A stretch of DNA of 64,000 nt from Pseudochryseolinea flava (GTDB lineage: Bacteria; Bacteroidota; Bacteroidia; Cytophagales; Cyclobacteriaceae). Below the pieces are notes generated by a model. The model was not told where the DNA came from. It saw only the letters and a list, made by a program, of their open reading frames with translations, and ran no database searches. A program made the translations under genes and the position numbers. Where the stretch lies: positions 248,001-312,000 of the forward strand of contig NZ_QMFY01000006.1 of assembly GCF_003286915.1 (NCBI RefSeq), written 5' to 3'. Shown here piece by piece: positions 10,303 to 24,962 of this stretch; the stretch's first letter is position 1; the number at the start of each line of letters is the position of its first letter.

Positions 10303-10728
10303 ATGAAATCAATTGAATACCAGGTAGGCAATTGGGTAAAGCGCCCGCAATCCGTAGAGGACTTTTTTGTATCCCCGATGTTCGAAGACCAGATTAAGAC
10401 GCTTCAAACGAATGATTCAGCGCTCTTCTCCAAACCTGATGATCGGGGTAATGGAAGTGTGCCTCTTTTTCAACTTCGTGGTATTCCATTGACAGATCAA
10501 TGGTTTGTCCGTCTAGGTTTTGAAAACAAGAGCGATGATACAGCCATTATCTGGCGAAAAGTTGCTCCAGGAATGACGATGTTCGATATACTCCAACGTC
10601 ATGGCGACAGCCGGATTTTTTCTATAAACTTTAAAAAGGTGCAAATTCCTGTGCAGTATGTTCACCAGCTTCAAAATCTTTACAAAGGATTAGCCGGTGA
10701 AGAACTTATCCAAGACCAGACACTGTGA
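10303..10728 (+). CDS. Hypothetical cytosolic protein
   Basis: 141 residues, ATG at 10303. Soluble, no signal peptide. Contains short hydrophobic strands separated by charged turns (VPLFQLRGIPLTDQWFVRLGFE) and no diagnostic motif. It is convergent with the oxidoreductase at 10737, with only 8 nt between the stops, leaving no room for a separate terminator. Function unknown. Confidence 0.5.
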   Translation: MKSIEYQVGNWVKRPQSVEDFFVSPMFEDQIKTLQTNDSALFSKPDDRGNGSVPLFQLRGIPLTDQWFVRLGFENKSDDTAIIWRKVAPGMTMFDILQRHGDSRIFSINFKKVQIPVQYVHQLQNLYKGLAGEELIQDQTL

Positions 10729-11805: not shown

Positions 11806-13716
11806 ATGTTCCGAAGAATACTCTTCATTGCATACTTGAGCGCGTTCAGTCTCGCGAGTTTCGCTCAGCAAGTCGTTGAGGTCGACGACAATAAGACGGA
11901 GCATAATTTTATGCCTTTTGAAATTCCCTTTTTTCTTGATGAATCGAATTCGTTAACCTTCAGTGAAATTTCGTCGCCGGGTTTCTCTAATCGCTTTAAG
12001 ATCAATCCCAACTATCAGAACAAAGACTTCAAGCCAGATGCTTCGTATTGGATCCGCCTTCCAATCCGACATAACACGGCCTCGCGTAAGGTGTGGCTGT
12101 TAGAATTTTATGATCAGACGATCGATCACATTGATGCTTACATCCCACGCCACGATGGTTCCTACGTAAATATTGAAATGGGTGACCAAAAGCCTTTTCG
12201 TGCCAGATCAGTGCTTCATAAAAATTATGAGATGGTGCTCGATATGAAATCGGACTCCGTGATGTACTACTACTTTAAAGTGAGTTCGCATGAGTTTGCA
12301 GATATCCGAATTGCATTTAGGTCTGTCGATCGATTTATCTACTACGCACTGAATGAATATTTTCTCTTCGGCACATTTTATGGAATGATTTTGATCATCA
12401 GTCTTTATAACTTTTTGGTCTTTTTGGCGATCAGAGAAGTAAAGAACATTTTTTACATACTGTATATACTGAGTGTCGCGGCATACGCCATGAGTTATGA
12501 TGGCATTGGATTTCAATATTTATGGCCCAATCATCCGCAGTGGAATGACTATGCAGTAGGGGTAACGTTGTACGCTGTAATTATTTGGAGCCTCGTCTTC
12601 ACGCGCCGATTTCTCAGAACGAAAGCAAATGCACCTAAACTTGATCGAATCCTTCAATGGATGATTATCGCACGAACGGTATTATTCATCATTGAACTGT
12701 TCTTCGTACCAGAATTGCTCACGTACAGAAACATCGAAATCATTCCTTTGTCAATGATTTTTTACACGGCTATTTCGGTATGGCGACAAGGTTATCGACC
12801 GGCGCGATTTTTCGTGATTGCTTATGGCGTGTTATTCACGGGATTCTTCGTCCGTACCCTGGTGTATTTTAACTTACTGCCCTTCACCACGGCATTACAC
12901 TACAGCTTACACTTCAGTTTCGTGCTGGAAATGCTTTTCCTCACGTTTGCGATGGGTGATAGAATTCGCATTTTAAAAGACATGCGTGATCGCGCGCTGA
13001 AAAGAACTATCCATCAGCAAGAAGTCAACATGGTGTTGAAGGACAAAGTCAACCGTGAGCTTGAGCAGAAAGTTTTAGAACGCACCACAGAGATTAACCA
13101 AAAGAACCGACAGCTCGAAGAGAGTAATCAAAAGCTGGAACGTCAAGCTTTTGAGATCAATCAAATCAATTCCATTCTTGACCTCGATAACTGGAAACTT
13201 AAGAACAGCATCAAGGAAGTACTCAATGAACGCCTGATGGAAAAGACGATGGACTATCAGCAGTTTCAAACGCTGTATCCGGATACACTCGCGTGCTATC
13301 GTTTTTTAGATACATTGAAATGGGAGAAAGGATTTCATTGTCGTAAGTGCAGCAATGAGAAGTTTTTCGACGGGGCAACAAAGTTTTCCAAACGTTGCAC
13401 ACGATGTGGCTACAACGAATCCGTCACGGCCTTCACCATTTTTCATAGCATTAAGTTTCCGATCGAAAAGGCGTTTTATATAGCCTACCTCACCGTTGCT
13501 GGCAAAAAGGATTACACGTTAGACGACCTCGCGGGACAACTCGATTTGCGGGTCAATACGGTTTGGGCCTTCAAACACAAAGTACTCGAGCGGATCGAGG
13601 ACTCAGAAAAGAAGGGCCGACGGATGACAATTTCGAGGTGGGAAGAGGTGATCATGATACATGATCAGTCAACCTCGTCGAAGAAAACCAAGGGAAATAT
13701 CGGTCAGCCAGCCTAA
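11806..13716 (+). CDS. 7TMR-DISM sensor fused to IS1595-type transposase zinc ribbon and HTH
   Basis: 636 residues. Signal peptide (ending ASFAQQ), then a periplasmic 7TMR-DISMED2-like jelly roll (about 35-165; FKPDASYWIRLPIRHN, WLLEFYDQTIDHIDAY). Seven membrane helices follow (about 185-390), then a cytoplasmic coiled coil (about 395-480). The C-terminus is not a kinase or cyclase. It matches the N-terminal part of IS1595-group transposases: FLDTLKWEKGFHCRKC, a zinc ribbon with Cys512/Cys515 and Cys531/Cys534, SVTAFTIFHSIKFPIEKAF, and a helix-turn-helix (LDDLAGQLDLRVNTVWAFKHKV). The protein ends about 45 residues later, before any DDE catalytic domain. It sits directly upstream of susC, so a membrane-tethered, ligand-gated DNA-binding regulator of this locus is the natural inference. 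Confidence 0.85.
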   Translation: MFRRILFIAYLSAFSLASFAQQVVEVDDNKTEHNFMPFEIPFFLDESNSLTFSEISSPGFSNRFKINPNYQNKDFKPDASYWIRLPIRHNTASRKVWLLEFYDQTIDHIDAYIPRHDGSYVNIEMGDQKPFRARSVLHKNYEMVLDMKSDSVMYYYFKVSSHEFADIRIAFRSVDRFIYYALNEYFLFGTFYGMILIISLYNFLVFLAIREVKNIFYILYILSVAAYAMSYDGIGFQYLWPNHPQWNDYAVGVTLYAVIIWSLVFTRRFLRTKANAPKLDRILQWMIIARTVLFIIELFFVPELLTYRNIEIIPLSMIFYTAISVWRQGYRPARFFVIAYGVLFTGFFVRTLVYFNLLPFTTALHYSLHFSFVLEMLFLTFAMGDRIRILKDMRDRALKRTIHQQEVNMVLKDKVNRELEQKVLERTTEINQKNRQLEESNQKLERQAFEINQINSILDLDNWKLKNSIKEVLNERLMEKTMDYQQFQTLYPDTLACYRFLDTLKWEKGFHCRKCSNEKFFDGATKFSKRCTRCGYNESVTAFTIFHSIKFPIEKAFYIAYLTVAGKKDYTLDDLAGQLDLRVNTVWAFKHKVLERIEDSEKKGRRMTISRWEEVIMIHDQSTSSKKTKGNIGQPA

Positions 13717-14043
13717 TCTCAACATAACCTTCACATTTTTTTGAACCGGATTCCGCTGGCACCGCAATGACATAAATCAAGTTTTTGCTGATTTGGAAAC
13801 TTTATTTCTATCCGGCAAAATATGATGTTTTTTTCCTAGAAGAGAGCCGAGGAGAGCTGCGGCAAATACGCCCGAAAACGTTTGAAATCAATGTTTTTTA
13901 TCCGCAAAAAACAAAGTGATGCCAAACGCCCGAAATCGATGCAAAAAGCGTGATTTCTTAAAAAAATCGTTGGAAAGCGATTGCAAACTCCAAAATTCAC
14001 TTCTGCGGATAGCTAAAACCAGCCGCTGCCGCAAGTGAAACTT
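13717..14043 (+). promoter_or_regulatory. AT-rich regulatory interval before susC with repeated motifs
   Basis: About 320 nt without a gene. ACGCCCGAAA occurs twice, at 13868-13877 and 13926-13935, 58 bp apart. TGTTTTTT (13892-13899) and AAAAAACA (13906-13913) form an 8-bp inverted repeat around ATCCGC, and TATCCGGCAAAA/TATCCGCAAAAA repeats occur near 13810 and 13900. AAACGTTT at 13876-13883 is palindromic. No TAnnTTTG box is evident. This interval probably holds the susC promoter and the binding sites of a regulator, perhaps the adjacent fusion protein. Confidence 0.45.
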
Positions 14044-17000
14044 ATGGTGAGATTTCTACTTTTCATTCTTTTCGGCATGACCATTTTTCATGCGCACAGT
14101 CAAAGTCGTCGCATTACGGGAAGTGTAAAGGATGGTCAGGACGGTAGTCCGATTCCGGGTGCTAACGTTGTTGTTCAGGGCACAAGTAAAGGTACGACAA
14201 CGGACCTCGATGGAAATTTTGCCATCGATCTTTCCGACACAGAAAGCGTTCTCAATTTTTCTTTTGTCGGGTATAAAACAAGTACTGTCGAGGTGGGGGA
14301 CCGCACGGTTGTTGACGTAACACTCGAGGCAGACATTACGATGCTTGCCGACGTGGTTGTTGTCGGTTACGGTATTCAGAAAAAAACGGATATAACCGGT
14401 GCCACAGCTTCGGTAAAAGGAGAAGAATTGTCTAAGCAACCGGTGCTCACAGCAACGCAGGCAATGCAGGGTAAGGTGGCAGGCGTTCAGATCATCAGCA
14501 GCGGACAACCTGGTACATCACCACAGGTCCGTATTCGAGGTTTAAGTACAGCACTAGGAGGAACGACAACACTTTTTGTTGTTGACGGCGTGCTCACAGA
14601 CGATATATCTAACATCAACACCGCCGATATCGTCAGTATGGATGTGCTGAAGGATGCATCGTCTGCTGCCATCTATGGATCACGTGGTGCGAATGGTGTG
14701 ATCATCATTACAACGCGACAGGGAAAGGCTGGAGCTTTTAAAATTAATTATAACAATAACATCGGTATTCGTCAGGCATCAAACTTAGTGGAGATGGCGA
14801 ATGCTGAAGAGTATAGAAACTATGTTCAGGCAGCGACGGGTGAAATTGTTCCACAATCCGACTATGACACCGATTGGTATGATACCATCCTTCGCACTGC
14901 ATTGCAACAGAGTCATAATATTTCATTGTCTGGCGGTACAGACAAATCAACGTTCCTCATCAATGCCGGTTATCTGGAAGATGAAGGTATCGTTATTGGA
15001 AATGAATTCAAACGACTAACACTTCGCCTCAACAGCGACTATAAAATCAATGATAAAGTTACACTTGGACTGCAGTCATCGTACGGTAGCAGTGAAAACC
15101 AAAATGGGTTTAACAATATCGACATTGACGCATTTGGAAATATCGGTGCTGTATACAACAATGCTTACCGTGCATCGCCAACCATTGCCAGTAAAGTTGG
15201 TGGGCGCTATGGAAATACATCAGCCTTTCAGAATGTGGGCAACCCGCTACTAGACGTAAGTAATAATCGGGTAAAAGTGTTGGAGAACAGACTTCAAGGA
15301 TCATCCTTTCTCGAAGTAAAACCAACGTCATGGCTAAGCCTTCGTACATCCATAGGCGCTGATTGGAAAAATAGTTTGAATCGTGTTTACGCATATGAGT
15401 TCAGAGCTGATGAAAACACATTCCTCATTGCGGGTGGCAATCAATTGAATCCACTGAGTCGTCTGAATGTAAAACAGATTCAGTCGTTTCGTTGGGTATG
15501 GGATAACACCGCGACGATTACGAAATCCTTTGACAAGCACGCATTCACATTACTCATCGGAACAACAGCAGAGAAGTACAAGCAGCATTGGATTTCGGCC
15601 CTTCGGAAAGATGTTCCCCCAGATGAAAATCTATGGTATATCAATGTTGGCGACGCCAATACATCACAAAACGATGGTAAAGGTGAAGCATGGTCTCGTA
15701 ACTCTTATCTCGCAAGATTGAACTATGCGTTCGATGAAAAATATTTACTAACGGCAACGATTCGAACGGATGGAAGTTCGCGGCTCCCTGGAAAAAATCG
15801 ATGGCAACAGTATCCGTCATTTGGTGTGGGATGGATCGCCAGCAGAGAGGCATTCATGCTTGATCAGAATATATTCGACCTTTTAAAACTTCGCGCTTCT
15901 TATGGTAAAGTTGGCAATGATCAGGTTCCAACAGATGCTTATACCAGTATCGTTACGTTAAACACACCCTACGCTTTCAACGGAAGTGTTTCGCCTGCCA
16001 CGAACGGAGCACAGTTAAAACAACTTATCGATCCCAACCTCACGTGGGAATCAACAACGGAATATGATGTAGCGCTTGAGTTCGAAATGTTGAATTCGAG
16101 ATTGTCGGGTGAAGTAAATTACTATAATAAAAAAGTCGATAACGCATTGATCAAAGTGCCAATCTTTAATACGATTGGTGATGATGATAACGCAATCATT
16201 ACGAATGTAGCATCGATTCAAAATAAAGGTGTAGAGGTTGTGCTCAATTGGAAAGGTGAAATAAACACAAAACTATCATACACTATCGGTGCCAATGCCA
16301 CTTTTAATAAAAATGAAGTGGTTGCATTAAATGGAGGACAAGCCATTTGGGGAGGAAGTGTTGGCGCGGCGCAAGGCTTTACAACATACACTGATAATGG
16401 TCAGCCTGTCGGAAGTTTTTATGTGCTGAAAGTTTTAGGTGTATTTAATACGGATGCCGAGGTTAACGCTTACGTCAATGATGAAGGAGAAAAGATTCAA
16501 CCTACCGCAAAGCCCGGAACATTTAAATACTTGGATAAAAATGGCGATGGTACAATCGACGACAGTGATCGGGTGTTCGCAGGATCGTATCAACCAAAAG
16601 CGTACTTCGGATTGAATTTGGGTGTGAATTATAAGAACTGGGATTTTGCTTTATCCATTTATGGTAACGTTGGTAACGAAGTCTACAATGGGAAGAAAGG
16701 TGTTCGCATTGATGGAAAGGATAACATCGAGCGTGATATGGTTTACAATCGATGGACGAGTGGATCTCGTTCACAAACTGAACCCGCAGCCAACACCGGC
16801 AATCTTCTCGCCTCAGATTATTTTATCGAATCCGGTTCGTTTGCACGAATCAATAATCTCACGATAGGTTACACACTTCGCCCAACGTTGCTTGAGCGCG
16901 TACGCATCAATAGTCTACGCGTTTTTGTGATGTCTCAAAATCTTCTGACCTATAAAAAGTATAGTGGGTTTACGGCAGAGCTGCCCGGCGATCCAACCAA

Positions 17001-17070
17001 TTCCGGGATAGAGCTCAGCGCTTATCCGACAACAAGAACAATTTCAGCGGGGGTCAATATTAGCTTCTAA
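14044..17070 (+). CDS. susC: SusC/RagA-family TonB-linked outer-membrane transporter
   Basis: About 1008 residues from ATG 14044; a GTG three codons upstream (14035) is an alternative start. Signal peptide ending HAHSQ, carboxypeptidase-regulatory-like domain (RRITGSVKDGQDGSPIPGANV), a TonB-box-like VVVVGYGIQKK, the plug (VAGVQIISSGQPG, VRIRGLS, VDGV, MDVLKDASSAAIYGSRGANGVIIITT), then a large barrel. The order and the GANGVI motif are diagnostic of SusC-type importers of oligosaccharides. It works with the SusD lipoprotein encoded 10 nt downstream. In this locus the cargo is probably the oligosaccharide released by the GH144 enzymes. Confidence 0.95.
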   Translation: MVRFLLFILFGMTIFHAHSQSRRITGSVKDGQDGSPIPGANVVVQGTSKGTTTDLDGNFAIDLSDTESVLNFSFVGYKTSTVEVGDRTVVDVTLEADITMLADVVVVGYGIQKKTDITGATASVKGEELSKQPVLTATQAMQGKVAGVQIISSGQPGTSPQVRIRGLSTALGGTTTLFVVDGVLTDDISNINTADIVSMDVLKDASSAAIYGSRGANGVIIITTRQGKAGAFKINYNNNIGIRQASNLVEMANAEEYRNYVQAATGEIVPQSDYDTDWYDTILRTALQQSHNISLSGGTDKSTFLINAGYLEDEGIVIGNEFKRLTLRLNSDYKINDKVTLGLQSSYGSSENQNGFNNIDIDAFGNIGAVYNNAYRASPTIASKVGGRYGNTSAFQNVGNPLLDVSNNRVKVLENRLQGSSFLEVKPTSWLSLRTSIGADWKNSLNRVYAYEFRADENTFLIAGGNQLNPLSRLNVKQIQSFRWVWDNTATITKSFDKHAFTLLIGTTAEKYKQHWISALRKDVPPDENLWYINVGDANTSQNDGKGEAWSRNSYLARLNYAFDEKYLLTATIRTDGSSRLPGKNRWQQYPSFGVGWIASREAFMLDQNIFDLLKLRASYGKVGNDQVPTDAYTSIVTLNTPYAFNGSVSPATNGAQLKQLIDPNLTWESTTEYDVALEFEMLNSRLSGEVNYYNKKVDNALIKVPIFNTIGDDDNAIITNVASIQNKGVEVVLNWKGEINTKLSYTIGANATFNKNEVVALNGGQAIWGGSVGAAQGFTTYTDNGQPVGSFYVLKVLGVFNTDAEVNAYVNDEGEKIQPTAKPGTFKYLDKNGDGTIDDSDRVFAGSYQPKAYFGLNLGVNYKNWDFALSIYGNVGNEVYNGKKGVRIDGKDNIERDMVYNRWTSGSRSQTEPAANTGNLLASDYFIESGSFARINNLTIGYTLRPTLLERVRINSLRVFVMSQNLLTYKKYSGFTAELPGDPTNSGIELSAYPTTRTISAGVNISF

Positions 17071-17080
17071 TTCGACGCAT

Positions 17081-18586
17081 ATGAAAAAGATTTTCTATTC
17101 AATATTCCTATTCATCACGGTTGTCTCGTCCTCATGTAGTGATCAGTTTTTAGACGTGCCTGTTCAGGGTGGTCCAACAACATCTTCTGATCCTAAGCTC
17201 GCAGAACGATTGGTAACAGGTGTGTACAACAGTATGCTTCAAGGTGACTCATGGGGCAATGGCGATGTTCATGGGTTTGCATTTCTCACGGTAACGAGTA
17301 TTATTTCTGATGACGCAGACAAGGGAAGTACAGCCGGTGATCAACAAATTCCTGTCGGCGATATCGACAACTTTACATTGACGCCCTCCAATCGTTTTGC
17401 GGAAACACTTTGGAGTGGACACTACAAAGCTATTGGTGCTGCAAACAAAGCCCTTGAAGCGCTCGAAACAGCATCTATTAGTGAAGAAGAAAAAAATAAG
17501 TTGAAAGGTGAAGTTCGTTTCTTACGAGGCTATTTCTATTTTAATCTGGTTCGCATGTACGGCGGCGTGCCATTGGTGCTACGGGTTCCACGCGACGCAG
17601 CAGATGCGAACAGCGATTTAGCTTTTCAAACGCGCGCAACAGAGGAGCAAGTATACACGAGTATAAAGTCGGATCTTACTTTCGCCTACGAAAATCTAAA
17701 AGTTAAATCTCAATCGTTGGTTGGTCACGCCAATAAGGGAGCTGCAGGTGCTCTACTTGCAAAGGTGCATATGTATCTTAAAGAATGGCAACCTGCGTTT
17801 GATCTTACGAAAGAGATAATTGAATCCAACCAGTATCAACTTGTTGAAGATTATGCTACCATTTGGCGTCAAGCGGGAGATAACAGTAGTGAATCTATTT
17901 TTGAAATTCAAACGGGAGAATTTAACAACGCCAATCTCAATATCAACAACTACACTACAGCACAAGGCGTGCGTGTAGGCGGAAAAGGTGGTTGGGATGA
18001 TCTCGGTTGGGGCTTCAATAACCCCTCTACAAGCTTGATCGCCGCTTACGAACCCGATGATCTCCGCAAAAATGCAACGATCATTTTTGTCGATAATTCT
18101 GGAGAGCATCATGGAACAATTTTGTGGGATGGATTCAGGATACCCAGCTCCGATTCAGTACAGAATTTATACTATAACTACAAGGCGTATGCCAGTAACT
18201 CAAAGGAAAATTACGCTGATCCAGGTACTAAAGATCTTCCCAAGAACATTAAGATTCTTCGCTACGCGGAAGTGCTACTGATCAATGCTGAAGCTGGGCT
18301 GGAACTTGGGCAAGGTGATCCAACAGCACGTGTAAATGAGGTACGCGAAAGGGCAGGACTTGATGACTTGGGAAGTGTAGATATAGACGATGTATGGCAG
18401 GAGCGTCGAATCGAATTTGCAATGGAGCATGATCGCTTCTGGGATCTTGTTCGTCAAGGTCGCGCAGCGGAAGTCATGCAAGCTGCGGGTAAAAATTTCG
18501 TTGCCGGAAAACATGAGCGTTTGCCAATTCCGATTTCACAGATTTTGTTAAGTGGAAACAAACTTAAACAAAACGACCAATACTAA
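17081..18586 (+). CDS. susD: SusD/RagB-family nutrient-binding lipoprotein
   Basis: 501 residues. Lipoprotein signal with the Cys in SSSCSDQFLD, then the SusD fold. The N-terminal TPR-like helices include AIGAANKALEAL, LKGEVRFLRGYFYFNLVRMYGGVPLV and AAGALLAKVHMYLKEW. The C-terminal region ends in the typical YAEVLLINAEAGLELGQ, VNEVRERAGL, and EFAMEHDRFWDLVRQGRA. These motifs are standard for SusD proteins that cap the SusC barrel and bind the glycan at the cell surface. It follows susC by 10 nt in the same operon. Confidence 0.95.
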   Translation: MKKIFYSIFLFITVVSSSCSDQFLDVPVQGGPTTSSDPKLAERLVTGVYNSMLQGDSWGNGDVHGFAFLTVTSIISDDADKGSTAGDQQIPVGDIDNFTLTPSNRFAETLWSGHYKAIGAANKALEALETASISEEEKNKLKGEVRFLRGYFYFNLVRMYGGVPLVLRVPRDAADANSDLAFQTRATEEQVYTSIKSDLTFAYENLKVKSQSLVGHANKGAAGALLAKVHMYLKEWQPAFDLTKEIIESNQYQLVEDYATIWRQAGDNSSESIFEIQTGEFNNANLNINNYTTAQGVRVGGKGGWDDLGWGFNNPSTSLIAAYEPDDLRKNATIIFVDNSGEHHGTILWDGFRIPSSDSVQNLYYNYKAYASNSKENYADPGTKDLPKNIKILRYAEVLLINAEAGLELGQGDPTARVNEVRERAGLDDLGSVDIDDVWQERRIEFAMEHDRFWDLVRQGRAAEVMQAAGKNFVAGKHERLPIPISQILLSGNKLKQNDQY

Positions 18587-18710: not shown

Positions 18711-19607
18711 ATGAAAACTAAACTGAATTACTGGTTAATGGCTGGTGTGGTCGCAATGGCTACAATCACTTCTTGTGGTAGTGACGACGATGATTCACTT
18801 CCGCCAATCGATGGTTATAATAACTCTAATGAAGTTTCCTCCGGAAATCTTCTTGCACACTGGTCTTTCGATGATACAAACAGTGAACGTATTTCAAATA
18901 CAGCAGCCTCCAATACATACGGCAGCGTCACTTACACAACTGGCCAGATTGGAAACGCATTGAAACTTGATCAGGGTGCACTTGTTTATCCTACAATAAA
19001 TGCAATCAATACTGCCAATGCGCTCAATAATTACACCGTTAGCCTCTGGGTGAATATTACAAACAATAAGAGAAGTGCTAACTCAGGGTTTACGTCCCTG
19101 TTCTCGCTAATTCCCACGAATGCTACTGATGTATGGGGCGATGTCAATGCGTGCGTGGAAACAAGTCGCCACTTGCCTTCTTCTGATACATTGGAATTAA
19201 AAAATCTTCAGCGATCTCACACAGAGGGTGGTGTAATTACCAATGATAACCTAGCCATGTTCAATGATGACACGGACAAAGGAAAATGGTTTATGGGTGC
19301 TAAAAAATGGGCGCACTATGTGATGACCTGGAATGCAACAACAAATGAGTATAAACTCTACGCAAATGGATCATCGCATGGTGCGTACGATGCGCGTAAT
19401 GAGGGTGGCATTATGATCATGGATGTGCCTGTGAAAGCTGTTTTTGGTAGCCTCGCGTCGAGCGACATCGGTTTTGCAGAAGCCGGGGAGCAGAGAGACT
19501 GGAATCCATGGGCAACAGCGATGATTGATGACGTACGCGTTTACAATACAGTATTGTCTCAAGTTGAAATTACGGCACTCTATAACCTGGGTGTCGCAGG
19601 TCGATAG
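18711..19607 (+). CDS. LamG-like jelly-roll surface lipoprotein
   Basis: 298 residues. Lipoprotein signal with Cys in TITSCGSDDDDS; the acidic stretch right after the Cys resembles the lipoprotein export signal of Bacteroidota surface lipoproteins. A single LamG/concanavalin-like domain (about 45-298) starts LLAHWSFDDTNS, includes YTVSLWVNIT and AHYVMTWNATTNEYKLYANG, and closes with MIDDVRVYNTVLSQVEITALYN. No glycosidase motif, so it is more likely a glycan-binding protein occupying the SusE/SGBP position after susD than an enzyme. A terminator-like hairpin follows at 19624. Confidence 0.85.
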   Translation: MKTKLNYWLMAGVVAMATITSCGSDDDDSLPPIDGYNNSNEVSSGNLLAHWSFDDTNSERISNTAASNTYGSVTYTTGQIGNALKLDQGALVYPTINAINTANALNNYTVSLWVNITNNKRSANSGFTSLFSLIPTNATDVWGDVNACVETSRHLPSSDTLELKNLQRSHTEGGVITNDNLAMFNDDTDKGKWFMGAKKWAHYVMTWNATTNEYKLYANGSSHGAYDARNEGGIMIMDVPVKAVFGSLASSDIGFAEAGEQRDWNPWATAMIDDVRVYNTVLSQVEITALYNLGVAGR

Positions 19608-19623
19608 GGTTTAATTGGTTGGG

Positions 19624-19652
19624 GGGTACATTTAACAGTGTACCCTCTTTTT
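19624..19652 (+). terminator. Internal terminator between binding and hydrolase genes
   Basis: GGGTACA (19624-19630) pairs with TGTACCC (19639-19645) across an 8-nt loop and is followed by TCTTTTTTG. It lies between the LamG lipoprotein stop and the first GH144 start. It may lower expression of the hydrolases relative to susCD, as is common in glycan loci. Confidence 0.75.
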
Positions 19653-19672
19653 TGTTTCTCAATGAATTGTCA

Positions 19673-21322
19673 ATGAAATTAGTAACATATCTTATTGCTG
19701 TGATCTCTCTCCTTGTTGTCTTCGTTTCATGCAAGGATAATGATGACACCGAGCCCCCGATTCCAAGAAACTTCGCGTTGACTAATATTTCACTCGATGG
19801 TCGGCCATTGAGTTTTGTGTATGCCAGTACGTCTATCCAACCTGAGATCAAATTATCGTTCGATGCACCGATCGATCATGAATCCGCGCTTGCCAATATT
19901 ACGATGGGAAGAGGAACGGGGCCTCTTGCTTTGAACATCACCTTCGAGAAAGGTGATAGTACCATCGTGATCAAACCGGTCAAGCCTTTAAACTATTTAA
20001 CAACTTACTCTCTGTTCGTTTCTACCGCACTCGCATCTCAAAAAGAACAGCTTTACGGAAGTACTATTGATATTAAAGTCGTGACTACCTACGACCCTGC
20101 AGATAAGTTCCCATCCATCAGTGACGATGCGTTGTTTGATCTTGTCCAGGAAAAAACTTTTCGGTACTTCTGGGATTTCGCGCATCCTGCCAGTGGTATG
20201 GCGCGCGAAAGAAATTCTTCCGGCAATACAGTTACGACTGGTGGCTCAGGATTTGGACTGATGGCCATTATTGTAGGAATAGAAAGAGAAATTATAACAC
20301 GAGCGGAGGGTGTGGAACGCCTTGACAAAATTCTTGCTTTCCTCGAAACAGCAGATCGATTTCATGGTGCATGGCCGCACTGGGTTGATGGACAAACGGG
20401 CAAAGTCATTCCGTTCAGTGCCAATGACAATGGTGGTGACCTGGTCGAAACATCTCTCCTTGTTCAGGGGCTGATCGCCTTTCGTCAGTACCTCCATCCA
20501 GAAAATGAAAATGAACAGGCATTGATTGATCGCATAAACGTATTATGGAAAGGCGTAGAGTGGGACTGGTACACGAAGGGCAACGAAAAAGTGTTGTATT
20601 GGCATTGGTCACCTGATAAAGCGTGGTCGATGAACCTTCAAATTCGGGGAGCGAATGAATGCCTGATTACTTATGTGCTTGCCGCAGCTTCCCCTGAACA
20701 TAGCATCGATGCTGATGTCTACACAGAAGGTTATGCGAGGAATGGAAATATTAGAAACGGGAAGAAATTTTATGACATTACCCTGCCGATCGGAAGCGAT
20801 TATGGAGGTCCACTTTTTTTTACACACTATTCTTTCTTGGGGTTAAATCCTAAAAATCTAAAAGATCAGTTTGCTGATTATTGGGAGCAAAATGTGAATC
20901 ATTCAAAGATTAACTACGCATACTGCGTTGATAATCCTAAAAATTATGCGGGCTACGGTGAAGATTGCTGGGGGCTAACAGCCAGTGATAATTACAATGG
21001 TTACTCAGCGCACTCACCGACAAATGATCTAAGTGTCATATCACCGACTGCCGCGCTTTCTTCTTTTCCATATACACCTGAAGAATCAATGCGCGCGATG
21101 AAATTTTTCTACTACAAACTAGGCGATAAATTATTCGATGACTATGGCTTTTATGATGCTTTCAGCTTGGAACGAGGCTGGATTGCGAACTCATACTTGG
21201 CCATTGACCAGGGCCCAATTATCGTGATGATCGAGAACCATCGCACCCAGTTGCTCTGGAATTTATTTATGTCTGCGCCCGAAGTACAAGCGGGCTTAAC
21301 AAAACTTGGATTTACATATTAA
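19673..21322 (+). CDS. GH144-like (glucoamylase-family) hydrolase with Ig-like domain
   Basis: 549 residues from ATG 19673; the frame is open further upstream through the terminator, so the later ATG followed by a signal sequence was chosen. Lipoprotein signal with Cys in VFVSCKDNDD. An N-terminal Big_5/Ig-like domain (about 30-145; IKLSFDAPIDHESALANI to IDIKVVTTY) precedes an (alpha/alpha)6-type domain. That domain has KTFRYFWDFAHPASGMARER, TTGGSGFGLMAIIVGIERE, ADRFHGAWPHWVDGQTGK and DGGDLVETSLLVQGL. These are signatures of the Pfam glycoamylase family that defines GH144, whose characterised members are endo-beta-1,2-glucanases. Likely periplasmic or surface-anchored. Confidence 0.85.
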   Translation: MKLVTYLIAVISLLVVFVSCKDNDDTEPPIPRNFALTNISLDGRPLSFVYASTSIQPEIKLSFDAPIDHESALANITMGRGTGPLALNITFEKGDSTIVIKPVKPLNYLTTYSLFVSTALASQKEQLYGSTIDIKVVTTYDPADKFPSISDDALFDLVQEKTFRYFWDFAHPASGMARERNSSGNTVTTGGSGFGLMAIIVGIEREIITRAEGVERLDKILAFLETADRFHGAWPHWVDGQTGKVIPFSANDNGGDLVETSLLVQGLIAFRQYLHPENENEQALIDRINVLWKGVEWDWYTKGNEKVLYWHWSPDKAWSMNLQIRGANECLITYVLAAASPEHSIDADVYTEGYARNGNIRNGKKFYDITLPIGSDYGGPLFFTHYSFLGLNPKNLKDQFADYWEQNVNHSKINYAYCVDNPKNYAGYGEDCWGLTASDNYNGYSAHSPTNDLSVISPTAALSSFPYTPEESMRAMKFFYYKLGDKLFDDYGFYDAFSLERGWIANSYLAIDQGPIIVMIENHRTQLLWNLFMSAPEVQAGLTKLGFTY

Positions 21323-21332
21323 GATTACAATC

Positions 21333-22706
21333 ATGATTAAACGTTTCGTTTACATTCTATTCGTTGGTACTACGCTTGGCGCCTGTGGCAAGCGTGATGC
21401 TCACGAAACTGTTGATGCCACTTCGAAGAAAGATTCATCAGCGGTAGCAATCAGCAACGATTCTCTCATGACACTCATTGAGTATAAAACATTTCAATAC
21501 TTCTGGGATGGAGCAGAACCCGTTTCAGGAGGAGCAAGAGAAAGATTCCACGCCGATAATATTTATCCGCAAAATGATAAGCATATTATCACTTCCGGTG
21601 GTACAGGTTTCGGCGTGATGGCTATTCTTGTTGGTATTGAGCGGAAGTTTATTACGCGCGAACAAGGTTATCAGCATCTTGATAAGTTTGTTTCTTGGTT
21701 AGAAAAAGCAGATCGCTTCCATGGTGTATGGCCACACTGGTGGAATGGTGAAACCGGAAAAGTAAAGCCGTTCAGTCCAAATGACGACGGGGGTGATCTC
21801 GTTGAAACCTCATATTTGGCGCAGGGTCTTCTTTGTGTTCGAGAATATTTTAAGGATGGTAGTGATGGGGAGAAGAAGCTTGCTTCACGCATCGACAAAC
21901 TGTGGCGTGAGATCGAATTTGATTGGCATCGCAATAACAAGAACGTATTGTACTGGCATTGGTCGCCTAACAATGGCTGGAAAATGAATTTCGCTGTTGA
22001 AGGGTATAATGAATGTTTGATTATGTATGTGTTGGCCGCGGCATCACCAACGCACAGCATACCAGCAGAAGTGTATCATGAGGGGTGGGCAAGAAAGGGC
22101 GGAATCAAAAACGATCCTGCACATGAGCAATATGGATTTCACCTCGACCTTCGTCACAACAGTGCGCAACAATTTGGTGGACCTCTTTTTTGGTCGCACT
22201 ATTCTTTTCTAGGCCTTAATCCAAAAGGTTTATCCGATCGCTATGCCGACTATTGGGAACACAACAGAAACCATACACTCATTAATCGGAAGTATTGCAT
22301 TGAGAATCCAAAACAGTTTAAAGGGTACGGAGAAAACTGCTGGGGACTTACCGCGAGTTACTCCGTGAAAGGATATGCGGCTCATAGTCCAACGGAGGAC
22401 CTAGGCGTCATCTCTCCAACAGCGGCATTGTCGTCACTCCCATATACACCGGATGAATCGATGAAAGTGCTGCGTCATTTTTATGAGGATTTAGGCGACC
22501 AGATTTTGGGCGATTATGGATTCTACGATGCTTTCAGCGAACAACATAATTGGTATCCGAAGAAGTACCTCGCTATTGATCAAGGCCCAGCTATTGTGAT
22601 GATGGAAAATTATCGGACAGGCTTATTGTGGAAACTGTTTATGCAAGCGCCGGAAATATCGCAAGGACTGAAAAAACTTGGATTTACAGTTCAGCAAACA
22701 AACTAA
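21333..22706 (+). CDS. Second GH144-like (glucoamylase-family) hydrolase
   Basis: 458 residues from ATG 21333, 10 nt after the previous stop. Lipoprotein signal with Cys in LGACGKRDAHE. No Ig-like domain; the catalytic-type domain follows a short linker. It is clearly a paralogue of the preceding gene: it shares YKTFQYFWDGAEPVSGGARER, ITSGGTGFGVMAILVGIER, ADRFHGVWPHWWNGETGK, DGGDLVETSYLAQGLL and the C-terminal LAIDQGPAIVMMENYRTGLLW. Tandem duplication with loss or gain of the Ig domain is likely. The two enzymes probably differ in location or chain-length preference on beta-1,2-glucan. Confidence 0.85.
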   Translation: MIKRFVYILFVGTTLGACGKRDAHETVDATSKKDSSAVAISNDSLMTLIEYKTFQYFWDGAEPVSGGARERFHADNIYPQNDKHIITSGGTGFGVMAILVGIERKFITREQGYQHLDKFVSWLEKADRFHGVWPHWWNGETGKVKPFSPNDDGGDLVETSYLAQGLLCVREYFKDGSDGEKKLASRIDKLWREIEFDWHRNNKNVLYWHWSPNNGWKMNFAVEGYNECLIMYVLAAASPTHSIPAEVYHEGWARKGGIKNDPAHEQYGFHLDLRHNSAQQFGGPLFWSHYSFLGLNPKGLSDRYADYWEHNRNHTLINRKYCIENPKQFKGYGENCWGLTASYSVKGYAAHSPTEDLGVISPTAALSSLPYTPDESMKVLRHFYEDLGDQILGDYGFYDAFSEQHNWYPKKYLAIDQGPAIVMMENYRTGLLWKLFMQAPEISQGLKKLGFTVQQTN

Positions 22707-22736: not shown

Positions 22737-24962
22737 ATGAAGAGACTAGCATTTTTATTTGTCGTTATTGTTGCCATGATGTTATCGGGGTGCGGTTCTA
22801 AAACAGAACACGAACAATCTGACAATATCAGTCATCAGGTTGACTCCGTTCTGCAATTGATGACTTTGGAGGAAAAGATTGGGCAATTGACGCTTTATAC
22901 CAGTGACTACGACGTTACAGGTCCTTCGATTCGCGAAAATTATAAAGACGATATAAAGAAGGGAAGAGTAGGGGCAATCTTCAACGCGTTCGGTGCCGAC
23001 TACACACGAAAACTTCAGGAAATTGCCGTGAAGGAAACGCGCTTAGGCATACCGTTGCTTTTTGGTTACGACGTCATTCATGGGCATCGCACCATATTTC
23101 CAATTCCATTGGGCGAAACCGCAAGTTGGGATACAGATGCCGCCTATACTTCGTCGCGTATTGCAGCTGTTGAAGCTTCTGCAGAAGGACTTCATTGGAC
23201 ATTTGCTCCCATGTGCGACATTGCGCGCGATCCACGCTGGGGAAGAATGGCTGAAGGTGCGGGTGAAGATACTTACCTCGGCGTAAAGATGGCAGAGGCT
23301 CGTGTGCGCGGTTTTCAGGGAAATAAACTCGGCGATTTAAATTCCGTGATGGCTTGCGTAAAACACTTCGCAGCCTATGGTGCTGTTCAGGCTGGTCGTG
23401 ACTATCACACCGTGGATATGTCGGACAGAATGTTGCGTGAAGTTTACCTGCCGCCATACAAAGCTGCGCTCGACGCAGGCGCTGCTACTGTGATGACGTC
23501 GTTTAACGAGTACGATGGTGTGCCTGCCTCAGGAAGTAAATTTTTGATGACGGATTTACTTCGAAACGAGTGGAAGTTCGATGGCTTTGTGGTGACGGAT
23601 TATACATCAATCATGGAGATGATTCCACACGGTGCAGCAGAAGACACAGCGTCGGCCGCAGCATTGGCTATTGAAGCCGGTGTCGATATGGACATGCAAG
23701 CTGGCTTTTATGAAGCAGCACTTCCTGCGTTGGTCAAGTCAGGAAAAATTAAAGAGCACATCATCGACGCTGCTGTCCGAAGAATTTTACGCAAGAAGTT
23801 TGAGCTCGGGTTGTTTAAAGATCCTTACCGATATAGCGATGTTGCTAGGGAAAAGAGCAGTGTGATGACAGCAGACCACCTGAATGCCGCCCGAGATATT
23901 GCGAGAAAATCTTTTGTGCTTTTGAAGAACGACGGTCAAGTGTTGCCACTCTCGAAAACAGGCAAACGTATTGCATTGATTGGCCCTCTTGTGAATAACA
24001 AACGTGAGATGATTGGCTCGTGGTCGGCAGCCGGCGATGGCCAGAAATCAATTTCTGTCCTTGAGGGAATTCGACAAGCGATTCCAGGTGTTCAAATCAA
24101 CTACGCAAAAGGGTGTAATATTAACGATGACTCGACACGTTATTTTTCGGAGGCTGTACGTGCAGCAAGCCAATCGGATGTTGTTGTGATGGCCTTGGGA
24201 GAAGCAGCATTGATGAGTGGTGAAGCGGCAAGTCGCGCTGATTTAAATTTGCCAGGGGTACAGCAAAAACTGTTTGATGAAATTAAAAAGACCGGTAAAC
24301 CAATTGTTGTGGTATTGTTTAGCGGCAGACCGCTAACGATAAATTCGCTCGATAAAAATGCAGATGCTATCCTTGAAGTATGGTTTCCGGGAACGCAAGC
24401 GGGGTTGGCGATTGCTGATGTTCTCTTTGGAGATTATAATCCGTCGGGAAAATTGCCGGTAACTTTTCCAAGGTCGGTAGGTCAAATTCCGATTTTCTAC
24501 AGCATGAAAAATACAGGGCGGCCCATGGATCCAAATCAAAAATATACCTCAAAGTATCTTGATGAATCGAATGAGCCATTGTATCCTTTTGGTTACGGGT
24601 TAAGTTATACGACGTTCAACTATGGTGACGTTTCGTTAAATACAAACGAAATGCAAGAAGGTGATACGTTGGTTGCGTCTTGCAGTGTGTCGAATGCCGG
24701 AAAAGCAACAGGTGAGGAAGTTGTTCAGTTGTATGTGCGCGATCAGGTTGGCAGCGTAACGCGACCTGTAAAAGAGCTGAAAGGGTTTCAGAAAATTGTA
24801 TTGAAGCCAGGTGAATCGAAGGTGTTAACGTTTAAGCTCTCGGTTAAAGATTTGTCGTTTTATCGTCGCGACATGACTTGGGGAACAGAGCCCGGCAAGT
24901 TCGATGTGTTTATCGGATCGAACTCACGCGATGCTAAGTCTACAACTTTCGTTTTGAAATAA
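22737..24962 (+). CDS. GH3 beta-glucosidase, lipoprotein
   Basis: 741 residues. Lipoprotein signal with Cys in MLSGCGSKTEHEQ. Classical three-part GH3 architecture: (beta/alpha)8 barrel (about 40-370; LMTLEEKIGQLT, FAPMCDIARDPRWGRMAEGAGED, KHFAAYGAVQAGRDYHTVDMS), the nucleophile region DGFVVTDYTSI, the alpha/beta sandwich (SFVLLKNDGQVLPLSK) and a C-terminal fibronectin-III-like domain (GEEVVQLYVRDQVGSVTRPVKELKGF). Resembles BglX. GH3 enzymes encoded with GH144 are known to cleave sophoro-oligosaccharides, so this protein probably converts the GH144 products to glucose in the periplasm. Confidence 0.92.
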   Translation: MKRLAFLFVVIVAMMLSGCGSKTEHEQSDNISHQVDSVLQLMTLEEKIGQLTLYTSDYDVTGPSIRENYKDDIKKGRVGAIFNAFGADYTRKLQEIAVKETRLGIPLLFGYDVIHGHRTIFPIPLGETASWDTDAAYTSSRIAAVEASAEGLHWTFAPMCDIARDPRWGRMAEGAGEDTYLGVKMAEARVRGFQGNKLGDLNSVMACVKHFAAYGAVQAGRDYHTVDMSDRMLREVYLPPYKAALDAGAATVMTSFNEYDGVPASGSKFLMTDLLRNEWKFDGFVVTDYTSIMEMIPHGAAEDTASAAALAIEAGVDMDMQAGFYEAALPALVKSGKIKEHIIDAAVRRILRKKFELGLFKDPYRYSDVAREKSSVMTADHLNAARDIARKSFVLLKNDGQVLPLSKTGKRIALIGPLVNNKREMIGSWSAAGDGQKSISVLEGIRQAIPGVQINYAKGCNINDDSTRYFSEAVRAASQSDVVVMALGEAALMSGEAASRADLNLPGVQQKLFDEIKKTGKPIVVVLFSGRPLTINSLDKNADAILEVWFPGTQAGLAIADVLFGDYNPSGKLPVTFPRSVGQIPIFYSMKNTGRPMDPNQKYTSKYLDESNEPLYPFGYGLSYTTFNYGDVSLNTNEMQEGDTLVASCSVSNAGKATGEEVVQLYVRDQVGSVTRPVKELKGFQKIVLKPGESKVLTFKLSVKDLSFYRRDMTWGTEPGKFDVFIGSNSRDAKSTTFVLK

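Follow-up and report, generated by a model that had tools for sequence, protein, structure and literature searches.

Background

PMC3878776 distinguishes three Bacteroidetes-specific kinds of glycan-locus regulator, namely SusR-like proteins, hybrid two-component systems and extracytoplasmic function (ECF) sigma/anti-sigma pairs. For the SusR-like proteins it predicts sites made of direct repeats with centers 67 or 77 bp apart, and it describes the SusR DNA-binding domain as having no significant similarity to known ones. BT3091 (SusR2) is encoded directly ahead of the susC gene bt3090 (PMC6874557). Among the 7TMR-DISM receptors, NicD has a GGDEF domain and a DISMED2 domain that has been linked to direct carbohydrate binding (PMC8544897). 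Here we describe a gene of Pseudochryseolinea flava, located at 11806-13716 on the plus strand of a 64,000-nucleotide stretch of contig NZ_QMFY01000006.1 (positions 248,001 to 312,000; the whole stretch is hereafter the window), which codes for a fusion of a 7TMR-DISM receptor to a C-terminal zinc ribbon and helix-turn-helix (HTH) of the IS1595 transposase type and stands directly ahead of susC and susD. Judging from its sequence and genomic setting, it is quite probable that this fusion acts as a membrane-tethered one-component activator that turns on transcription of the glycan-uptake locus next to it.

The fusion shares with the SusR-like proteins (SusR, SusR2/BT3091) the plan of a membrane protein with a periplasmic sensor and a cytoplasmic C-terminal HTH, encoded ahead of susC; it differs from them in that the sensor is a DISMED2 domain followed by seven helices and the DNA-binding domain is predicted to be an IS1595-type zinc ribbon plus HTH. 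Like the hybrid two-component and ECF sigma/anti-sigma systems (PMC3878776), it would tie periplasmic sensing to susCD transcription, but no kinase, receiver, AraC, sigma or anti-sigma domain is among the Pfam matches of the window protein or of the 43 aligned members. It resembles NicD and RetS in combining DISMED2 with the 7TM domain, yet its output is a predicted DNA-binding domain, whereas that of NicD is GGDEF (PMC8544897). Among the titles and abstract openings listed by searches of open-access literature, which did not extend to subscription papers, preprints and database architecture pages, none describes this fusion.

Domain architecture of the fusion protein

The gene is a single open frame of 636 codons that spans the whole of 11806-13716. 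The first 21 residues (11806-11868) read by eye as a probable signal peptide, and the AlphaFold model has a helix at residues 2-18. They are followed by a 7TMR-DISMED2 periplasmic sensor (residues 42-169, 11929-12312; Pfam PF07696, E = 1e-24), for which the best Foldseek match is the periplasmic domain of RetS (3jyb, E = 1.1e-5), a receptor whose own output is a kinase. Next comes the seven-helix membrane domain 7TMR-DISM_7TM (residues 184-386, 12355-12963; PF07695, E = 7.7e-47), with corresponding helices in the model; the remaining matches of the whole model at E <= 0.001 are to human WLS, seven-helix receptors scoring more weakly. A linker (residues 387-476, 12964-13233) that looks by eye like a coiled coil, modelled as helices at residues 367-448 and 460-476 with low confidence at 450-470, leads into the C-terminal region (residues 484-602, 13255-13611), which hhalign, NCBIfam and the model predict to be an IS1595-derived DNA-binding domain. 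From the sequence and the model, the latter comprises a zinc ribbon with C512, C515, C531 and C534 and an HTH at residues 553-602.

The Pfam model Zn_ribbon_IS1595 matches residues 496-536 of the window protein with 22.0 bits (E = 1.6e-4), below its cut-off of 25.4, and the NCBIfam IS1595 transposase model matches residues 550-602 with 30.1 bits (E = 4e-7) against a cut-off of 75. A score far under this whole-protein cut-off is as expected if only the N-terminal part of the transposase is present, and the frame indeed stops 34 residues past the last HTH helix, with no DDE domain in the fusion. The AlphaFold model, built on a 43-row alignment, has a mean predicted local distance difference test score (pLDDT) of 85.8 and a predicted template modelling score (pTM) of 0.64, residues 450-470 being poorly placed. 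Its C-terminus shows three short strands within residues 520-539 and helices at 553-565, 572-579 and 583-602, and looks alike when modelled alone (pLDDT 82.3, pTM 0.76). The topology of sensor, membrane anchor and C-terminal HTH is a prediction from the family matches and the model. An earlier note on this DNA had read it as a 7TMR-DISM sensor and an IS1595-type ribbon and HTH in one protein, free of the DDE catalytic domain, and both points hold: Pfam, NCBIfam and hhalign (Prob 99.85) recover the two parts, and the DDE family PF12762 is unmatched in 43 fusions. The TIFHS motif to which the same note pointed occurs in the window protein, although relatives do not consistently keep the H and S (e.g. 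TLLQ in L003 and L017).

Conservation and gene-neighborhood of the fusion

The genome of P. flava has six 7TMR-DISM genes, three of which are full-length fusions, namely the window copy and the paralogs C4 and C22 (45% and 39% identical to it, respectively). At E <= 1e-60, a whole-protein profile of these three copies matched in 153 of the 295 genomes scanned from this family, covering 48 of 84 genera; nearly all of the matches listed span the C-terminal domain, but some of the weakest of the 153 may be receptors without it (G030, for instance, has no match to the domain). The C-terminal domain alone was matched in 160 of the 295 genomes and 53 of the 84 genera at E <= 1e-15, and among the matches listed (down to E 1e-42, about 125 genomes) it always lies in a frame of 584-715 residues, i.e. 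one of the size of the fusion. A search in related genomes had been set beforehand as a refuting test, and the fusion turned out to be widespread. Phylum-wide, the domain was matched in 48 of 395 genomes at E <= 1e-5, in a mixture of fusions, transposase-sized proteins and short proteins.

Named genomes yielded 196 relatives, and the 80 best of these, from Cyclobacteriaceae, Fulvivirgaceae, Pedobacter and other groups, were kept for analysis. Cultured bacteria with the fusion include Chryseolinea serpens and Ohtaekwangia koreensis. The receptor frame carries the domain in 79 of the 80 loci, the exception being L091, which lies at a contig end and has a frame that starts within the domain; two further loci are irregular, with no ATG near the start (L099) or an apparent frame break further upstream (L079). 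In 43 aligned relatives, the window protein included, Pfam at E <= 0.001 detects the 7TM and DISMED2 domains in all 43 and the zinc ribbon in 41, while the NCBIfam IS1595 model matches 25 of 28 C-termini. All four cysteines are invariant across the alignment, in line with the four-Cys ribbon that had been proposed. In six fusions scanned for the zinc ribbon (PF12760), the match exceeds the 25.4-bit cut-off in four, equals it as printed in L151 and falls below it in L098 (22.3 bits). Gene calls of 514 residues in some members suggested loss of most of the periplasmic domain; this was rejected, since in L071, the only case looked at, the open frame extends further upstream, and allowing ATG starts alone had produced the short call.

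In 75 of the 80 kept loci a SusC-like gene follows on the same strand, with its start under 600 nt away (in L041 the gene is that of another TonB-dependent receptor), and SusD comes next in 68 of the 69 loci that have enough sequence, L041 again being the exception. Of the five loci lacking a near SusC, one has it at +1763 (L048), two lie on contigs that end after 397 and 1165 nt (L084 and L088), and in two the next long gene is on the opposite strand (L090 and L111). With about 44 SusD genes in 6.5 Mb of this genome, we estimate that chance adjacency would affect about one gene in a hundred. The position directly ahead of susCD noticed earlier in the window (susC ATG at about 14044, then susD) is therefore not local to it. 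Three 7TMR-DISM genes of this genome are not fused; for the two other than C44, the 17-18 kb stretches in which they lie contain neither SusC nor SusD.

Direct repeats in the spacer ahead of susC

The spacer between the fusion gene and susC holds two direct repeats that form a candidate operator. The left copy (13825-13843, plus strand), which begins ATGTTTTTTTCC, lies at an offset of 108 past the fusion stop codon; the right copy, ATGTTTTTTATCCGCAAAA (13891-13909, plus strand), lies 66 bp from it and has a left flank, CGTTTGAAATCA, from 13879. To compare loci we distinguished a Pedobacter-type set of 21 (20 Pedobacter and one Albibacterium) from the window type, which covers every other locus in the set. 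Among 51 dereplicated window-type spacers between fusion and susC, 44 contain ATGTTTTT, where shuffles expect 3.2. Counting near-identical loci too, 39 of 56 window-type loci have the exact [AT]TGTTTTT pair at 64-67 bp, with a spacing of 65 bp in 21, 66 bp in 16 and 64 bp in two; it is absent from all 21 Pedobacter-type loci and from 40 other susC promoters of this genome (those fetched out of about 42 other SusD loci), of which six have a single [AT]TGTTTTT. Window-type copies share the consensus WTGTTTTT and have an invariant A 16 nt further along; CGTTTGAAATCA precedes the right copy. As a separate observation, L088 has by eye a window-type repeat pair (10481-10600), yet its next gene is lipoprotein-like and no SusC follows before the contig ends soon after.

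Pedobacter-type spacers contain GGTATTWAAGCGTATCA-like repeats, 92 bp apart in 20 loci and 90 bp in one, and AGCGTAT occurs in 21 of 21 of them as against none of the 56 window-type loci and one of the 40 control promoters. A promoter-like element, TTG...TAACTTTAC, which in our assessment resembles the Bacteroidota -33/-7 promoter, is found in 20 of the 21 loci, 67 nt (19 loci) or 68 nt (one locus) past the start of the right repeat.

A further 40 spacers were fetched, 29 of them independent of the earlier set and mostly more divergent or paralogous. For 20 of these 29, picked by hand, the DNA-binding domain was also retrieved and assigned by best alignment score, giving six Pedobacter-type and 14 window-type domains. 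RGCGTATYA, a pattern fixed after strings from these spacers had been seen, occurs in all six spacers of the former and in none of the 14 of the latter, and four of the six loci have two copies, 78-80 bp apart. The association holds within single genomes: G240 carries both domain types and has RGCGTATYA with the Pedobacter-type copy only, and the C22 paralog of P. flava, whose domain groups with the Pedobacter type, has GCGTATCA twice in its spacer, 81 bp apart. One repeat type, that of Pedobacter, hence goes with one type of DNA-binding domain. The average repeat profile of the 29 independent spacers peaks at 64-65 bp, and some of the later window-type loci have TAAAGCG-like strings in partial repeats 64 bp apart (e.g. 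L266 and L271).

Origin of the C-terminal domain

Comparison with hhalign of a profile of 28 C-termini with nine IS1595-type transposases aligned 119 colinear columns (Prob 99.85, E = 1.1e-30), the region of homology stopping ahead of the transposase DDE domain. These profiles indicate that the C-terminus of the fusion is homologous to the transposase N-terminus, with which it has the zinc ribbon plus HTH in common; it differs from the transposases in having no DDE domain, in being joined to a receptor and in its conserved place ahead of susCD. PF12762 is not among the Pfam families matched by the 43 fusions; in free transposases used as a control it scored 71.9 bits in L131 and weakly, 21.9 bits, in L154 (cut-off 27). 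A domain tree was built from 135 columns and 76 rows, close rows having been thinned and L079, L091 and L099 relabelled; in it, 48 fusions fall on one side of a branch and the 28 other rows on the other, with support 96/78 and recovery in 96% of 200 bootstrap trees; an earlier tree, in which those three loci were labelled non-fusion, had 97/57 at the corresponding fork. The tree is consistent with a single origin of the fusion, its columns being few and its support not decisive. The nearest non-fusion rows in the earlier tree were a 137-residue stand-alone protein on a long branch (G450) and ten transposase-like copies in G452.

The ten IS1595-type proteins of G452 (L152-L159 and L128) sit in mixed neighborhoods, L159 with strong inverted repeats. 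Nine of them were read by eye: all nine have another residue in place of the TD-motif Asp and likewise in place of the VDE-motif Asp, although L157 and L159 have an Asp next to the latter position; the set is possibly a non-autonomous expansion or a separate domestication. Stand-alone zinc ribbon plus HTH proteins of 154-155 residues (L160, 6435-6899; L161, 6336-6800; L162, 6413-6880) share a gene-neighborhood in three genomes of one genus that by eye includes no glycan locus. L163 (5888-6445), a stand-alone protein of 185 residues with an IS1595-type domain, is flanked by a SusD-containing locus and by an opposite-strand gene for a 1358-residue protein that by eye resembles a hybrid two-component regulator.

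Proposed mode of action and its alternatives

We propose that a glycan fragment would bind the periplasmic DISMED2 domain and that the signal would travel via the seven-helix domain and the coiled coil to the cytoplasmic zinc ribbon and HTH. The latter, which may have been captured once from an IS1595-family transposase and is probably dimeric, would bind the two direct repeats in the pre-susC spacer, 66 bp apart here, and thereby switch on susC, susD and the enzyme genes behind them. In this scheme we infer DNA binding, dimerization, activation over repression, and the ligand. The earlier suggestion of a membrane-tethered transcription factor is favored by the conserved direct repeats of the spacer and by the tracking of domain type by one of the repeat types.

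Several results weigh against this proposal. The exact window-type pair occurs in only one of the 29 independent spacers and in two of seven new top-scoring loci, which rules it out as a universal signature, and a model-free search for repeat pairs at 60-95 bp gave four of 29 at p <= 0.05 where 1.5 are expected. In the 14 later window-type loci a single [AT]TGTTTTT is found in two and the pair in none; co-variation with domain type is therefore shown for the Pedobacter-type repeat only. In window-type loci the promoter-like element is not above chance (8 of 39, against 9.0 in shuffles). Genome-wide, the exact pair occurs three times, one being this site, as against five times for a reversed-pattern control, so the exact pair alone defines no regulon. 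Nor is adjacency to susC universal: among the 40 further fusions a SusC-like frame lies within the next ~850 nt in 33 (22 of the 29 independent of the first set), and the C4 paralog precedes a GH30 (glycoside hydrolase family 30) gene, with no susC. The C-terminal structure prediction yields a ribbon plus HTH, as the earlier note had it, but Foldseek with this model found zero solved relatives at E <= 0.001, its matches above that value being weak pieces of e.g. NudC, TFIIB, DeoR, GerE and IclR, and a sequence-profile search of solved chains with the C-terminus found nothing significant (best E 0.035); the fold is thus predicted without a confirming solved relative. Derivation of the operator from transposon ends is not supported either: around the free transposases closest to the fusions, L159 (which marks the same place as L177) was the single copy with strong inverted repeats (19/20), and these have no clear match to the operator.

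Repression of susCD by a protein that binds the repeats until it is relieved by glycan binding is the most probable of the alternatives, although we regard it as unlikely. The sign of control is not fixed by the sequence, and with some six helical turns between them the two repeats could hold a loop that hinders transcription. In the Pedobacter-type loci, however, both repeats lie upstream of the promoter-like element, as for an activator, and at a fixed distance from it in 20 of 21. SusR, which works similarly, is an activator according to PMC3878776.

It is also rather improbable that the zinc ribbon and HTH form a protein-contact module devoid of DNA binding, with another regulator occupying the spacer repeats. 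Zinc ribbons often contact proteins, and the window-type repeat is not conserved in the divergent members; against this, the Pedobacter-type repeat tracks the domain type even between paralogs of one genome (in P. flava itself, G000, and in G240), and none of the four cysteines varies in the 43-row alignment.

Membership of the fusion in the SusR family appears very improbable, despite the common plan of periplasmic sensor, membrane and C-terminal HTH and the gene position directly ahead of susC. The long-spaced direct repeats are a further likeness, with SusR centers at 67 or 77 bp and spacings here of 64-66, 76, 78-81 and 90-92 bp; those before susC are 64-66 bp apart in the 39 of 56 window-type loci, and such pairs were detected in few of the divergent members. 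With SusR taken to be a DUF6377 protein, membership is disfavored in that none of the 43 members matches DUF6377, the DUF6377 C-termini read show no four-Cys ribbon, and hhalign aligned DUF6377 with the fusion over 26 HTH columns only (Prob 29.5). By analogy, then, the fusion probably works like SusR while being no member of its family as far as compared via DUF6377. Two DUF6377 proteins are also encoded in this genome (L223, G000:C45:205200; L234, G000:C3:7787), and since the C3 gene lies, by coordinates, shortly before a SusC/SusD pair, both designs may coexist in it. Lastly, an assembly or frame artefact in which a receptor gene runs into a transposase remnant, though it might be suspected from the sub-cut-off zinc-ribbon match of the single window protein, is ruled out by the fusion-length frame of every match listed among the 295 genomes, the zinc ribbon in 41 of 43 members and the clustering of fusions on one side of a tree branch.

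Enzymes encoded behind susCD and candidate ligands

Downstream of the fusion gene and all on the plus strand, the window codes for a SusC-like TonB-dependent transporter (14044-17070; the frame is listed from a GTG at 14035, but by eye the true start is probably the ATG at 14044), a SusD-like lipoprotein (17081-18586; PF07980 and PF14322), a protein with a lectin-like Laminin_G_3 domain (18711-19607), two PF10091 'glucoamylase' enzymes (19619-21322, presumably GH144-like, and 21306-22706) and a GH3 glycosidase (22737-24962), the last four assigned by Pfam. PF10091 enzymes are present in all five other window-type loci scanned (L038, L046, L061, L078 and L089); of GH3 genes, Pfam confirmed just the one in the window. 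GH30 genes occur in the Pedobacter-type locus L096 and at the C22 paralog. The latter precedes SusC and SusD, with a pair of GH30 genes two genes further along. Across the small number of loci scanned, the enzymes are split by type of DNA-binding domain, with GH30 in L096 and L151 and PF10091 in the window and the five loci named above. PF10091 includes the GH144 beta-1,2-glucanases and GH30 includes beta-1,6-glucanases. As the locus of the window has two PF10091 enzymes and a GH3, its ligand is perhaps a beta-1,2-glucan fragment; such ligand assignments are guesses.

Conclusions

On balance we think it likely that the fusion represents a further class of glycan-locus regulator beside SusR, the hybrid two-component systems and the ECF pairs, in which the DNA-binding domain was captured once by a seven-helix receptor and the paired operators have since diverged together with it into at least two types (ATGTTTTT and GCGTATCA), each accompanied by its own enzymes (PF10091 and GH30, respectively) in the handful of loci scanned. 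This would amount to convergence on the SusR design from unrelated parts. For binding and reporter assays the paired repeats are a concrete and inexpensive target, and the neighboring enzymes hint at candidate ligand glycans. If the proposal is true, the fusion would add to the uncommon examples in bacteria of a domesticated transposase DNA-binding domain, here serving a membrane sensor as its output, and would provide many glycan-uptake loci in Cyclobacteriaceae, Pedobacter and their relatives with a regulator.

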